The position numbers and the translations under genes were made by a program. This document shows positions 706 through 5,201 of a stretch of DNA of 64,000 bases, one piece after another (position 1 is the stretch's first letter; every line of letters starts with the position of its first letter). A model generated the notes under the pieces. It saw only the letters and a list, made by a program, of their open reading frames with translations, was not told the origin of the DNA and ran no database searches. The DNA comes from Catenuloplanes niger (GTDB lineage: Bacteria > Actinomycetota > Actinomycetes > Mycobacteriales > Micromonosporaceae), in assembly GCF_031458255.1 (NCBI RefSeq), contig NZ_JAVDYC010000001.1, positions 1,621,001-1,685,000 of the forward strand, written 5' to 3'.

Positions 706-706
706 A
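694..706 (+). promoter_or_regulatory. -10 element giving a leaderless start
   Basis: TAAACT occupies 694-699 and the ATG of the phosphatase gene starts at 706, exactly seven bases after the hexamer. With a normal -10 to +1 distance the first transcribed base would be the A of the ATG. No ribosome binding site precedes this ATG, in keeping with a leaderless mRNA. No clear -35 is seen. Confidence 0.5.
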
Positions 707-2226
707 TGGCTGACGACGGCGCGCCTGCCCCGGAGCAGGCCGCTGCGATCGTCCAGGAGATCCTCGCCGGCATTCCCGCGGGCTGTTCGTGGCTGCTGCC
801 GGTCACCGGTCCGGACGGCACCGTCACCGACTTCCGGGTCGCCGCGGCCGGCGACCGGGTGCCGGACATCTACCACCGCGGCGCCAGCCGCCTGGGCAGC
901 ACCCTGTCCGCGCTCTACCCCAGCATGGTCGGCGGCCCGCTGTGGGAGCTCTACCAGCGCGTGCTGGCGACCGGTGAGCCCGGCGAACTGGACGAGTTCG
1001 TGCACGACGGGACGCACTCCGGCGTGGTGGCCCGCTCGGTCTTCACGGTCAGCGTCCGGCCCGTGCTCGGTGGCCTGCTGGTGGTCTGGCAGCGCCAGGA
1101 CGAGCAGGCGCGCCGGCTCGCGCACACCGAGTTGCTCGGCAGCCTCGGCTGGTCGGAGTACGACCTGCACACCGGCCGGACCGACTGGTCGCCGGGGATG
1201 TACCCGGTGTTCGGCCGGGACCCGGCCGACGGGCCGCTGACCCGGATGGAGCTGGCCGCGCTGATGCTGCCGGAGGACCGCGGCCTGGCCGAGACCGCGT
1301 GGCAGACACTGGACAGCGGTGCCACGTCGGACGTGACCGTGCGGTTCCGGGTCGGCGACGGGGTCAAGCACCTGCGGATCCTGGCGGACACCGCGCGGGA
1401 CGCGGACGGCAAACCGGTCAAGATCTACACGGTGGTGCAGGACGTGACCGCGCGTGTCGACACGCGTACCGAGCTGGAGCGGCTCGGTGACCAGCTGCGC
1501 ACCCGGGAGATCACCGCGCTGGCCGAGCACCGCCTCGCCGGGCAGCTGCAGAACATGATCCAGCCGGTGCCGCGCGACCCGTTCCCGCTCGCCGGCCTGG
1601 ACGCGATGGTCAGCTACCTGCCCGCGGAGCGCGCCGTGCTGGTCGGCGGCGACTGGTACCACGCGCAGACGCTTCCCGACGGCCCGGTCGTGCTCGCGAT
1701 CGGCGACGTGGCCGGCCACGGCCTGGACGCGGCCAGCGGCATGGCGCACCTGCGGTTCGCGCTGGTCGCATGGCTCTCCATCGGCCTGCGCGACCCGGGT
1801 GTGCTGCTCGGTCACCTCAACCGGCTCTGCCTCCAGCTGCGGATCACCGGCACCGCCGTGATCGCGCTCTTCGACCCGGCCACCCGCGTGCTGCGCTGGG
1901 CCCGAGCCGGCCATCCCGCGCCGCTGCTGTCCCGGTCCGGGGCGGCCACGGAACTGGACCGGCCGGACGGCCTGCTGCTCGGCGCCATCGCGGACACGGA
2001 GTACCCGGTGTTCGCGCCCGGCCTGCAGCCGGACGACGTGGTCCTGTTCTACACCGACGGCCTGGTCGAACGCCGGGCCGGCGACCCGGCCGCGCAGTTC
2101 CGCCGGGTCCGCGACGCGCTCGCCACGGCCGGCCCCGACCTCACCCGCGTGCACGCGACCCTCAACGAGCCCAGCACCTTCGACGACACCTGCACGCTCG
2201 CGATCCGCGTCCGGCCGTCGTCCTGA
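706..2226 (+). CDS. PAS-domain SpoIIE-type PP2C serine phosphatase
   Basis: A 506-residue cytoplasmic phosphatase of the RsbU/SpoIIE group, which dephosphorylates STAS anti-sigma antagonists in partner-switching systems. A PAS-like region spans roughly residues 143-250 (from LLGSLGWSEYDLHTG to VVQDVTAR). A less certain sensor domain precedes it (IVQEILAGIPAGCSWLLPVTG). The phosphatase domain (about 280-505) shows the metal-binding motifs GGDWYHA (near 314) and GDVAGHGLDAA, then GHPAPLL and FYTDGLVERR. No membrane segment is visible, so the PAS region probably senses a cytoplasmic ligand or redox state. The next two genes, convergent on the other strand, encode a HATPase anti-sigma kinase and a STAS antagonist, which are natural partners. 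The ligand and target sigma factor are unknown. Confidence 0.9.
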   Translation: MADDGAPAPEQAAAIVQEILAGIPAGCSWLLPVTGPDGTVTDFRVAAAGDRVPDIYHRGASRLGSTLSALYPSMVGGPLWELYQRVLATGEPGELDEFVHDGTHSGVVARSVFTVSVRPVLGGLLVVWQRQDEQARRLAHTELLGSLGWSEYDLHTGRTDWSPGMYPVFGRDPADGPLTRMELAALMLPEDRGLAETAWQTLDSGATSDVTVRFRVGDGVKHLRILADTARDADGKPVKIYTVVQDVTARVDTRTELERLGDQLRTREITALAEHRLAGQLQNMIQPVPRDPFPLAGLDAMVSYLPAERAVLVGGDWYHAQTLPDGPVVLAIGDVAGHGLDAASGMAHLRFALVAWLSIGLRDPGVLLGHLNRLCLQLRITGTAVIALFDPATRVLRWARAGHPAPLLSRSGAATELDRPDGLLLGAIADTEYPVFAPGLQPDDVVLFYTDGLVERRAGDPAAQFRRVRDALATAGPDLTRVHATLNEPSTFDDTCTLAIRVRPSS

Positions 2227-2266
2227 CGGTGCCCGGCGGCGTGCTTCCCACCTCCGGCGGCACTGC

Positions 2267-2284
2267 GCGGGAACGCGGTCCCGC
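2267..2284. terminator. Small hairpin between convergent genes
   Basis: GCGGGA (2267-2272) and TCCCGC (2279-2284) form a perfect six-base stem with a six-base loop. It lies in the 78-base gap where the phosphatase gene and the anti-sigma kinase gene converge, and could end either transcript. No T tract follows. Confidence 0.4.
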
Positions 2285-2304
2285 AAGAGGTCGGGAACGC
2301 GCGG

Positions 2305-2700
2305 CTACAGGTCGAGGTGGATGCGGACCCGGGTGGCGCCGTCGATGACGGACGTCTCCACCTCGTCGCAGATGCTCTCGACGATGGCCAGGCCCCGGCC
2401 GCGGAGCGCGGCGGCCGGCGGCATCGAACGGCCGAGGAGCGGGACGGCGACACCGTCGAGCGCGTTGTCCGTGACGTCGCAGACGAGCCGGCCGCGGTCG
2501 GCGCGGACCCGGACCTCACCGCCGGAACCGGTGTGCTGCAACGTGTTCGTGGCGAGCTCGGTCACGGCCAGGGTCAGCAGCTCGGTGCGTTCCTCGGAGA
2601 GGCCGAGCACGGCGGCCCGGGCGGACACGAACGCGCGCACCGTGGCCAGGTCGGCGGCGGCCGCGTAGCGCATGCGCGAGTCGTCAGACACCGGTCTCAC
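2305..2700 (-). CDS. HATPase anti-sigma serine kinase (RsbW-like)
   Basis: About 131 residues forming a single GHKL ATPase domain of the HATPase_c_2 type, which phosphorylates STAS antagonists and may bind a sigma factor. The N box is LLTLAVTELATNTLQHTG with E and N conserved. The G1 box is DVTDNAL, and the G2-like segment is LRGRGLAIVESICDEVE. The length matches stand-alone RsbW-like proteins. The start is uncertain: GTG at 2700 overlaps the upstream STAS gene by 17 bases, while GTG at 2691 and ATG at 2673 are alternatives. None has a clear ribosome binding site, so translational coupling to the STAS gene is likely. Together with that gene and the PAS-phosphatase this makes a complete partner-switch set without an adjacent sigma factor. 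Confidence 0.85.
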   Translation of the reverse strand: MRPVSDDSRMRYAAAADLATVRAFVSARAAVLGLSEERTELLTLAVTELATNTLQHTGSGGEVRVRADRGRLVCDVTDNALDGVAVPLLGRSMPPAAALRGRGLAIVESICDEVETSVIDGATRVRIHLDL

Positions 2701-3016
2701 CGGACCCGGCGGCCGGCTCGGCCAGCAGCTCGCCGACGCCGGTCAGGTCCAGCACGGTGGCGACCGGGCCGTGCGCGTTCGCCACGTACAGCTGCCCACC
2801 ACCGGCCCGCGCCGCGTGGTACGCGGTGACCAGGCCGTGCACGCCGGTCGAGTCGATGAACGTGACGTGGGTCAGATCGACCACCACGGTCCGTGCGGCC
2901 GCGACCGCGGCCAGCAACGCCGCGGTCAGCTCCTCGCGCACCGCCAGATCGCACTCGCCGTCCAGCGTGACCACCGTCCGCGTGGGACCGCCGGACGACC
3001 GCGCCGCGAATCCCAT
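2684..3016 (-). CDS. STAS-domain anti-sigma factor antagonist (RsbV/SpoIIAA-like)
   Basis: 110 residues spanning one STAS domain. DLTHVTFIDSTGVHGL carries the conserved D-S-T-G site; S56 is the expected phosphorylation target of the neighbouring HATPase kinase. The ATG at 3016 was chosen because GGGGAGG sits eight bases upstream; the frame stays open for another 59 codons upstream, but that stretch is arginine/proline-rich and unlike the family. It is first in a two-gene unit with the anti-sigma kinase, overlapping it. In the family model the unphosphorylated form binds the kinase and frees its sigma factor; the PAS-phosphatase at 706-2226 would regenerate it. Confidence 0.88.
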   Translation of the reverse strand: MGFAARSSGGPTRTVVTLDGECDLAVREELTAALLAAVAAARTVVVDLTHVTFIDSTGVHGLVTAYHAARAGGGQLYVANAHGPVATVLDLTGVGELLAEPAAGSGETGV

Positions 3017-3234
3017 CGCGCCTCCCCTGTATCCGCCGCTCATCATGGCATCACGGAGCACCCGGCACGGCGGGGGCCCGGCGCGCGTCCGGGTGCGTTC
3101 GCGCCCGGCCGGCCCTCGCCGGCCACGTGACGAGGAACTTTCGCACTCCGGTGGGTGTAGATTCGCCCGGCCACTGTTCCCGGTGGCCGTCATTCGGTAC
3201 GGTTCGGGCGGCTTAAGGATCTCGTAAGGAGCAG

Positions 3235-4881
3235 GTGGTGACGCAGCGGTTCGCCCTGGTGCTGGCGGCGCGACGAGGTGACCACCCGGCGCTCGCGGAG
3301 CTCGTCGCGGAGCATCTCCCGCTGGTCTACAACGTGATCGGCCGTGCGGTCGGCACGCACGCGGACATCGACGACGCGGTCCGGGAGACCATGCACCGGG
3401 TCGCCCGCGACCTGCCCGACCTGCGCGAACCCGCCGCGTTCCGGCCCTGGTTGCTGGCCCACGCGCTGCGTCAGGCCACCCGGGTCCGCCGGGGCGGCAC
3501 GCGGGCGCCGCTGCCCGAGGACGGCGACGCGCCGGACCCCGGCGCGGACTTCGTCGGGCTGAGCATCATCCGGCTCGGCCTGTCCGGTCAGCGGCGGCGG
3601 CTGGCCGAGGCGACCCGCTGGCTCGACGGCGAGCACGCGACCGCGCTGTCGCTGTGGTGGCTGGAGGCGGCCGGCACGATCAGCCGCACCGAGTCCGCGG
3701 CCGCGCTGCGCATGTCCCTGGCCGACGCGGGCGCGCGGATCGACCGGATGCGTGAGCAGCTGGACGTCACCCGGGCACTGGTCAGCGCGCTCCGGGCGCG
3801 CCCGGTCTGCCCGGGCCTGCGGCTGGTCACCACGGACTGGGACCACCGGCCCGGCCCGGCCTGGCGCCGGCGAATATTCCGGCACGTCAGTAACTGCCCG
3901 GTCTGTTCCGGCCTGGCCGCGCACCACATCCCGGCCGAGCGGCTGGTCACCGGGCTGGCGCTGGTCCCGGTGCCGAACACGCTGCTCGCCGCGCTGCACG
4001 CGGACGGCCTGCTCCCGGAGCCGGCCGGCGCGCCCGTCGTGGTCTCCCGCGGCACGGTCCACGAGCCGCTCGAACTGCTCGCCGCACCGGCCGCGGCGAC
4101 CCCGGAACCACTTCCGGCGGTACGCCGCCCGTCCGCCGTCCTGATGCTCGCGGCCGTCGCCGTGCTGGTGGCGGTGGTGGCGGGCGGCGCGCTGGCGCTG
4201 ACCCGCACGCCGGACGTGCCGGACACCGTCCCGGTCGCGGCCGACCTGCCCCGCCGCACCCGGCAACCGTCCGCGTCGGACACCGGTACGCCGCCGGCCT
4301 CGGCCTCGCCGTCCGCGTCGGCGTCGCCGTCGGCGTCGGTCTCCCCGTCGCCGTCGAGGTCCGCGGCCGGCGTCGCCGAGGCCGCCGCGCCCGCGCCCGC
4401 CCCGCCCGCGAGGCCGGCCCGGTCCGCGACGCCGGCACCCGCCGTTCCCGGCCGGCCGGTGACTCCGGCGCCGGAACCGGCCGCGGACCAGCGGTGGATC
4501 CGCTCGGTCAACCACCCCGACCGGTACGTGCGGGAGCGCGGCGGCTACGCCATGCTCGACGCGGTCGGCGAGTCCGGCGCGACCGCGTTCACCGTGGTGC
4601 CCGGCCTGGCCGACGCGCGCTGCCGGTCGCTGCGCCTGCCGGACGGCCGCTACCTGCGCCACTACGACTACCGGCTGCGCGCGTCCCGCCCGGACGACAG
4701 CGCGCTGTTCCGCGCGGACGCCACGTTCTGCCCGGAGCCCGGCGCGGTCGCCGGCTCGGTCACGCTGCGGTCGTACAACTATCCCGGTCACGTGGTCCGG
4801 CACCGCAACTTCGCGCTGTACATCGACCGCCCGGACGGCTCCCGCACCTTCGCCCGCGACGCGTCGTTCGTGCTCGGCTGA
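3235..4881 (+). CDS. Membrane-spanning sigma/anti-sigma-like fusion with C-terminal AbfB (CBM42) domain
   Basis: 548 residues combining parts that are usually separate. Residues 1-95 resemble ECF sigma region 2 (DIDDAVRETMHRVARDLPDL, then AAFRPWLLAHALRQATRVRR). Residues 120-190 resemble a worn region 4 helix bundle. HVSNCPVC (H217, C221, C224) fits the H-x3-C-x2-C zinc motif of anti-sigma factors. A single membrane helix lies near 302-323, followed by a Ser/Pro/Ala-rich linker. Residues 418-548 form a beta-trefoil AbfB domain with three repeats (RYVRERGGYAMLD, RYLRHYDYRLRAS, HVVRHRNFALYID), a family that binds arabinofuranose side chains. Predicted topology is sigma-like part inside and sugar-binding part outside. 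GTG at 3235 follows AAGGAG. Whether the sigma-like part still binds polymerase is unknown; it may be a DNA-free sensor. Confidence 0.8.
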   Translation: MVTQRFALVLAARRGDHPALAELVAEHLPLVYNVIGRAVGTHADIDDAVRETMHRVARDLPDLREPAAFRPWLLAHALRQATRVRRGGTRAPLPEDGDAPDPGADFVGLSIIRLGLSGQRRRLAEATRWLDGEHATALSLWWLEAAGTISRTESAAALRMSLADAGARIDRMREQLDVTRALVSALRARPVCPGLRLVTTDWDHRPGPAWRRRIFRHVSNCPVCSGLAAHHIPAERLVTGLALVPVPNTLLAALHADGLLPEPAGAPVVVSRGTVHEPLELLAAPAAATPEPLPAVRRPSAVLMLAAVAVLVAVVAGGALALTRTPDVPDTVPVAADLPRRTRQPSASDTGTPPASASPSASASPSASVSPSPSRSAAGVAEAAAPAPAPPARPARSATPAPAVPGRPVTPAPEPAADQRWIRSVNHPDRYVRERGGYAMLDAVGESGATAFTVVPGLADARCRSLRLPDGRYLRHYDYRLRASRPDDSALFRADATFCPEPGAVAGSVTLRSYNYPGHVVRHRNFALYIDRPDGSRTFARDASFVLG

Positions 4882-4889
4882 GCGCGCGC

Positions 4890-5201
4890 GTGCTGCCGCA
4901 GGAGCGTCTGATCGCGCGCGTCCACGAGGCCTGCGCGGCCGATCCCCGGCTCACCGCGGCGCTCACCTACGGTTCGTTCCCGGCCGGCGCGGGCGACGCG
5001 CACAGCGACGTCGAGTTCTGGTTGTTCTTCGCGGAGACGCCGCCGGACGCGCGATCCTGGCTGGACGCCCTCGGACCGGTCGCGACCCCGGCCGCGATCG
5101 CCGGGACCTGGCGCCACGGCCGGTGGTGCTGGCACCGGCTGGCCGCCGACGCCGTCCCGGACGCGCTGTTCGCGGAGCTGGACGCGGCGCTGACACCGTA
5201 G
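4890..5201 (+). CDS. Short nucleotidyltransferase-fold protein, probable internally deleted lincosamide-type enzyme
   Basis: 103 residues starting at GTG 4890, eight bases after the upstream gene. The N-terminal half carries the polymerase-beta nucleotidyltransferase signature YGSFPAGAGDAHSDVEF (residues 27-43), with both metal-binding acidic residues. Its best resemblance is to lincosamide/aminoglycoside-type nucleotidyltransferases, which I recall as roughly 260-270 residues. Here the chain jumps after residue 62 to HGRWCWHRLAADAVPDALF, which looks like the C-terminal end of that family. An internal deletion that keeps frame is therefore likely. Alternatives are a genuine minimal nucleotidyltransferase or an antitoxin-like MNT protein, but no HEPN partner is next to it. 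Drug modification should not be assumed. Confidence 0.6.
   Translation: MLPQERLIARVHEACAADPRLTAALTYGSFPAGAGDAHSDVEFWLFFAETPPDARSWLDALGPVATPAAIAGTWRHGRWCWHRLAADAVPDALFAELDAALTP

Follow-up and report, generated by a model that had tools for sequence, protein, structure and literature searches.

The window, a stretch of 64,000 nucleotides, carries near its beginning an open reading frame at 3235-4881 on the forward strand. GC3 in this frame is 0.95 overall and 0.91-1.0 by segment, and it is a real gene. In its product a sigma-like part, a zinc motif, a transmembrane helix, a proline-rich linker and an extracellular sugar-related domain follow one another in that order. The features are as follows.

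3175..3203, +, promoter-like element TGTTCC-N17-TACGGT (includes TTCC-N12-TTCGGTACGGT), common to the sister paralogue
3235..4881, +, whole gene, 548 aa: sigma2, sigma4, zinc anti-sigma-like domain, transmembrane helix, Ala/Pro/Ser linker, AbfB
3301..3495, +, sigma-70 region 2, residues 23-87 (Pfam PF04542; family profile against ECF sigma structures)
3511..3588, +, inter-domain segment, residues 93-118 (five orthologues, mean identity 95%)
3589..3783, +, putative divergent sigma region 4, residues 119-183 (aligned to sigma-E in the full-length profile; hhalign to the relative L025)
3784..3984, +, predicted zinc anti-sigma-like domain, residues 184-250 (C192-x24-H217-x3-C221-x2-C224; hhalign to L025)
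4129..4206, +, single transmembrane helix, residues 299-324 (hydropathy)
4207..4491, +, Ala/Pro/Ser-rich linker, residues 325-419 (composition; least conserved segment, 55% mean identity)
4498..4872, +, AbfB / CBM42 beta-trefoil, residues 422-546 (Pfam PF05270; PDB matches; pocket spacing)

Translation likely starts at the second GTG (3238), because AAGGAG lies at 3226 and the first GTG is replaced by another codon in the orthologue from genome G002. Downstream, positions 4882-5201 hold the remains of a nucleotidyltransferase-like gene, whose frame is longer in G001 and G002 and whose G001 product matches LinB-like_C. On the other side, positions 706-3193 encode a SpoIIE-type phosphatase with PAS, an RsbW-like HATPase and a STAS protein, an arrangement that is partly kept in the genus. 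The gene could conceivably work with this adjacent partner-switching cassette and not as a self-contained switch, since in the window it is transcribed divergently from the STAS and RsbW-like genes, and inspection by eye shows the same for G001 and G004. We consider this highly improbable: in G002 a further gene separates them, in G003 the neighbourhood has been rearranged, and among 11 annotated plasmid loci of relatives a STAS gene is nearby in one (L018) and an 'ATP-binding protein' in two (L014, L020). Moreover, we know of no RsbW-type kinases that act on ECF sigma factors.

Domains of the fused protein

An earlier note on this DNA had described an ECF region 2-like N-terminus, and this holds: Sigma70_r2 matches residues 23-87 with 35 bits (E 1.2e-8) against a cut-off of 24. 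Beyond region 2, the profile search that the note had proposed against ECF and zinc models gave less. For the window protein alone Pfam returned neither a region-4 nor a zinc-finger match, the general ECF model of NCBIfam, TIGR02937, scored 25.3 bits, below its cut-off of 42.9, and region 2 was matched by many other NCBIfam ECF models, with none reaching its own cut-off among the 25 matches listed. In a PDB search with the window protein, AbfB domains are the best matches and ECF sigma factors rank below them.

Profiles built from the relatives described below reach further. A 17-member family profile made without L025 aligns to E. coli sigma-E from end to end, region 4 included (E 4e-13), and a family profile that includes L025 likewise aligns to ECF sigma factors across regions 2 to 4. 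The profile of the region-4 segment by itself finds no PDB match at E 10, which counts against the region-4 assignment. L025 is the most canonical member and the only one with a canonical region 4 (Pfam E 6.6e-9), and the family segment aligns to it by hhalign with E 1.6e-4 and a probability of 51%. It also has a zf-HC2 match at E 0.037, below that model's cut-off. Since L025 holds matches to both region 4 and zf-HC2, and the family segments in turn match L025, it bridges these segments to known domains. L025 was excluded from alignments A4, A5 and A6, and L015 from A2 and A5.

The zinc motif H217, C221, C224 is present as the earlier note gave it, and it is completed by a fourth position that the note had missed, C192, to give C192-x24-H217-x3-C221-x2-C224. 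The same spacing is found in 40 of 41 family members, the window protein included, and the remaining member, L112, has x22 at the first interval; all four residues are invariant in an 18-row alignment. The profile of the zinc segment alone (A5) matched no anti-sigma structure, which counts against the zinc-domain assignment, and the match to RsiW with profile A1 is weak (E 1.1). Aligned to L025 by hhalign, the A5 segment gives E 2e-10. The window protein thus has the four-ligand pattern of zinc anti-sigma domains, and it is predicted to bind zinc.

Hydropathy places one hydrophobic helix at about residues 299-324, in agreement with the single membrane helix proposed earlier, and an Ala/Pro/Ser-rich stretch follows. 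A single-sequence structure prediction of residues 1-261, a check also proposed in the earlier note, gave pLDDT 46.7 and pTM 0.28; this counts against our preferred explanation, and the model was set aside.

AbfB matches residues 422-546 with E 2e-39, and its PDB matches include the CBM42 of the anti-sigma factor RsgI5 (9fnk, E 1.8e-16). The claim of a three-repeat AbfB trefoil stands, with the amendment that the first repeat lacks the His of the pocket; the pairs H476-D495 and H523-D542 are kept. We take the His and Asp of AbfB to be the arabinofuranose-pocket residues. The H476-D495 spacing occurs in 21/21 AbfB-type members, and that of H523-D542 in the window protein and its four orthologues. 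From the AbfB domain alone, the ligand of the window clade would be an arabinofuranosyl glycan. Short AbfB proteins with no sigma or zinc part also occur, in Actinoplanes utahensis and Symbioplanes lichenis (L001:4749-5429 and L008:4566-5369; 226 and 267 aa), and by eye they have a hydrophobic helix and a Pro/Ala-rich linker.

Relatives, conservation and exchange of the outside domain

A tblastn search of plasmids with residues 1-330 matched 21 records, with a top identity of about 50% across approximately residues 7-250. They come mostly from Streptomyces and its kin, and also from Cellulosimicrobium and more distant bacteria. Seventeen of the 21 records were analysed, leaving out H5 (same strain as H4), H18, H20 and one unlisted record. 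All 17 members have the same order of parts, and the outside domain varies: it is CAP in ten, AbfB in four, GH99-like in one and a beta-helix in one, and in L025 no outside domain scores above the Pfam cut-off. The organism's own genome (9.74 Mb) has four close members, namely the window gene, a GH128-like type and two further AbfB types; the GH128-like paralogue matches Pfam Glyco_hydro_cc, which we take to correspond to 'GH128'. At E 1e-15, members were found in 7 of 21 genomes (the own genome included), comprising all five of the genus, each with four matches, and two of eight others of the family, and none was found in eight other genomes of the order. A scan of genome contigs with the whole protein gave eight loci, all of which match the AbfB part only, and viral contigs searched with alignment A1 gave no match. 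Read from sequence, the family is one cytoplasmic module joined to swappable putative sensors of CAP, AbfB, GH128-like, GH99-like or beta-helix type, and this view of it is new here.

In the tree, the window gene groups with a long AbfB paralogue, here called the sister (support 98/99), and the deeper order is without resolution. The sister protein (L067:5497-8808, 1103 aa) has a very long low-complexity segment between the zinc domain and the membrane helix. We see that these two genes share changes in the sigma-like part. The region 2.2 sequence DDVVQ, whose Gln is kept in nearly all other members read, has become DDAVR or AHAVR, replacing Gln by Arg, and region 4 differs from the other rows of the tree. 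Region 2 of the sister, at 22.7 bits, falls short of the cut-off of 24. A change from Asn to Arg in region 2.4 was considered as a further mark of this branch and dropped: Asn is found in CAP types, and Arg is common to all non-CAP types read, including types with the common promoter motif upstream.

Each of the other four genomes in the genus has an orthologue of the window gene, 79-95% identical to it over residues 1-257. Among the five orthologues the mean pairwise identity is 0.85 for sigma2, 0.95 for the segment between, 0.83 for sigma4 and 0.88 for the zinc domain, compared to 0.74 for the juxtamembrane part, 0.77 for the transmembrane helix, 0.55 for the linker and 0.81 for AbfB. In three pairs with G000, Nei-Gojobori dN/dS ranges over 0.15-0.34 for sigma2, sigma4 and the zinc domain, against 0.28-0.79 in the linker, 0.22-0.61 in AbfB and 0.37-1.06 in the transmembrane helix; dS is rough due to high third-position GC, and weight is placed instead on the contrast in identity. 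Purifying selection acts on the sigma-like part. The 'worn' region 4 of the earlier note is therefore an apt description in that the segment by itself matches no structure, but a decaying remnant is rejected on the grounds of orthologue conservation, as mean identity in the sigma-like part is 83-95% and in the linker 55%.

Neighbouring genes and promoter-like elements

Glycanase genes accompany many of the AbfB-type relatives. With window-clade and sister loci counted separately, 8 of 11 AbfB-type loci have a GH10, GH62, GH54 or GH43 gene no more than about 3.2 kb away, in a count that sought only relatives of eleven query proteins drawn from some of the same loci, and over loci that differ in length, all glycanase matches falling at 3.2 kb or less and inside a flank of about 4 kb or more. 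The same kinds are found at 0/11 CAP-type loci (Fisher p 0.001 against the AbfB types, an optimistic value because the eight AbfB loci amount to about five lineages, as a matter of judgement and not from a tree). Not all loci are independent: L011, L022 and L023 are close kin, and L066 and L111 look like congeneric orthologues. The adjoining protein is GH10-ricin-GH62 at L022 and L023, GH10-CBM2 at L066 (an AbfB paralogue of the own genome) and L111 (its likely orthologue in G003), GH10-ricin at L110 and GH62-ricin at L113, and a GH54-type arabinofuranosidase and a GH43 neighbour L107; L013, L108 and L109 are AbfB-type loci with no glycanase neighbour of the kinds sought. Conversely, a separate CAP gene occurs at 4/11 CAP-type loci versus 0/11 AbfB-type loci (p 0.09), and the beta-helix type L112 adjoins a pectate-lyase gene. 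At L065:5996-10166 the GH128-like sigma fusion adjoins an alpha-amylase with CBM20, and an amylase is present in four of five species loci examined.

Among the ten loci of the window orthologues and the sister, not one has a nearby glycanase gene of the kinds sought, and none of the five window-orthologue loci adjoins an arabinoxylan enzyme of those kinds. A GH30-type protein at genome positions 1614572-1617727, about 6.5 kb upstream of the window gene, was considered as such a neighbour and rejected as too distant. The arabinoxylan ligand proposed in the earlier note is supported for the other AbfB types, and not for the window gene or its sister. Instead, AbfB might anchor to, or monitor, the arabinose-containing wall glycans of the bacterium itself, in which case the switch would answer the state of the envelope and not a plant polysaccharide. 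Arabinose is found in cell hydrolysates of such bacteria, and Actinoplanes and Symbioplanes have AbfB proteins that lack a sigma or zinc part and in which a hydrophobic helix can be made out by eye, which, together with the 10/10 window and sister loci that lack a glycanase gene of the kinds sought, favours this reading. We nonetheless regard it as distinctly unlikely, as glycanase genes do adjoin the other AbfB-type members at the frequency given above.

A common motif, TGTTATC-N16/17-GTCTCC, lies 74-92 nt before 10 of the 17 plasmid sigma genes with at most two mismatches, whereas shuffled controls of the same 17 loci gave 2-9 motif matches anywhere, all loci taken together. A matrix built from the ten sites adds L021; the motif was not found before the remaining six genes (four AbfB types, L014 and L025). 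A related pattern, sought across the own genome, gives 69 matches at three or fewer mismatches, compared to 24 for a reversed control, and only two matches in the 9.74 Mb have one mismatch or none. One of these two lies directly before the GH128-type paralogue, where the element is kept in 5/5 species. The other precedes a 183-aa open frame (L068:5744-6371; own genome 2523743-2524370), which is hydrophobic by eye and has no Pfam match.

Related elements also stand before neighbour genes. The common element is upstream of the separate CAP gene in 4/4 loci (L010, L012, L014, L019), and at L112 it lies inside the longest pectate-lyase frame, about 130 nt before the likely start at the signal peptide. 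A variant, TTTTYYGTTACG-N17-GCCTCC, is found 209-286 nt before the GH10-GH62 gene in 3/3 Streptomyces AbfB loci, inside a conserved block. A weaker variant, upstream of the own GH10 xylanase, scores 19.4 against a best shuffled score of 18.1.

In the 64 kb window, the common family motif occurs only at chance level. The window gene has an element of its own: TGTTCC-N12-TTCGGTACGGT stands before it and its four orthologues (5/5 species), and the sister has the element with TTTTCC in 5/5 loci. Sampling 889 kb of the own genome gives the window and sister sites as the only two of TTCC-N12-TTCGGTACGGT. Common descent of the upstream regions would explain why the two genes share it. Among the window orthologues the flanking sequence has diverged around a conserved element, most of all in G002, and in the sister loci the entire stretch before the gene is nearly invariant. 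The resulting candidate code, TGTTCC/TTTTCC-N17-TACGGT, has the same 23-nt start-to-start spacing as the common family motif.

These elements bear on whether the window-clade sigma domain still initiates transcription. It might instead be a tethered sensor or decoy that binds polymerase, DNA or a regulator, e.g. a sibling sigma factor. Such a role would be in keeping with the Gln-to-Arg change in region 2.2 and the divergent region 4 of window gene and sister, with the sister's sub-threshold region 2, and with the lack of the family motif and of an enzyme neighbour of the kinds sought. It is at odds with the dN/dS of 0.15-0.34 and the 83-95% mean identity of the sigma-like part, and with a gene-specific promoter-like element directly upstream in each of the five species searched within the genus; on balance we think it unlikely. 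Conservation and promoter-like elements suggest that the sigma part does function as a sigma factor.

For the family as a whole, we propose tentatively, as a possibility rather below even chances, that the sensor is swapped together with the regulon. Each member would sense the kind of substrate attacked by the neighbouring enzyme, with TGTTATC-N16/17-GTCTCC as a shared promoter code, and the window gene and its sister would form a branch with changed region 2.2, changed region 4 and the altered code TGTTCC/TTTTCC-N17-TACGGT.

Proposed switch and its known counterparts

We consider it fairly probable that the window protein is a membrane-tethered one-component sigma switch that senses a glycan. 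The domain order, the conserved zinc positions, purifying selection on the sigma-like part and the family-level matching of sensor, neighbour gene and promoter-like element are observed. The one-protein transmembrane sensor with a tethered sigma-like domain that the earlier note had put forward is the best reading, and it agrees with the described ECF52/ECF53 kind. An ECF-type sigma factor in the cytoplasm would be followed by a zinc anti-sigma-like domain that keeps it inactive, and the single helix and flexible Ala/Pro/Ser linker would place the AbfB (CBM42) domain outside. There, AbfB would bind arabinofuranosyl residues of a glycan, and ligand binding would lead either to proteolysis at the membrane or to a change of conformation, either of which would release the sigma part. 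Once free, this would bind core polymerase and start transcription of its regulon, probably with its own gene included; no regulatory target of the window protein was found. The roles of AbfB as arabinofuranosyl-glycan sensor and of the zinc domain as intramolecular restraint are suggested by analogy with ECF52 and RsgI5.

The closest described counterpart is ECF52, represented by SCO4117 of Streptomyces coelicolor, in which sigma factor, zinc finger, transmembrane helix, proline-rich extension and carbohydrate-binding domain are fused; in the passages cited, the group is stated to be exclusive to Actinobacteria, and proteolysis or a conformational change is proposed to release the sigma factor (PMC5826349, PMC8999054). 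Some ECF52/53 proteins are reported to carry glycosyl hydrolase and carbohydrate-binding domains (PMC10766802). As far as these descriptions go, the window protein resembles ECF52 and ECF53 (and ECF48) in running from sigma to sugar-related domain on one polypeptide, and a fused ECF52/ECF53-type sigma factor with a membrane anti-sigma part is a known kind. The likeness to SCO4117 is one of published description. That protein carries a smart00776 module where the window protein has AbfB, and the motif proposed for it, CSGYN-17-SRHA, is unlike the elements reported above. Unlike the ECF52 kind as described, the window protein has a region 4 that matches no family model. Our literature searches found no AbfB-type sigma fusion, though the family may have been mentioned before; within the literature searched, the AbfB form, which has a branch and an upstream element of its own, seems to be a previously undescribed variant.

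RsgI5 of Clostridium thermocellum is like the window protein in having a CBM42 on an anti-sigma protein, with a homologous AbfB domain. Where the window protein has its zinc anti-sigma-like domain, RsgI5 has RsgI_N. To our knowledge, a sugar-binding domain is absent from a further counterpart, IutY of Pseudomonas putida (ECF243). In the passage cited, RsgI5 is given as 'RsgI_N-UNK-CBM42' with sigI5 and rsgI5 as separate genes, so that it is encoded apart from its sigma factor whereas the window protein is fused (PMC4711584). IutY is described as a sigma factor and membrane anti-sigma factor on one polypeptide, freed by proteolysis, and serves iron-starvation signalling in answer to the siderophore aerobactin (PMC8999054).

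In the ECF52/ECF53 literature, as far as the sources cited describe it, the sensing step awaits experiment, and in the family presented here sensor, neighbour gene and promoter-like element point to each other. As the three agree in several loci, ligand and targets become directly testable. If the window branch has indeed changed its promoter specificity along with its sigma residues, it would be a natural orthogonal sugar-responsive switch.
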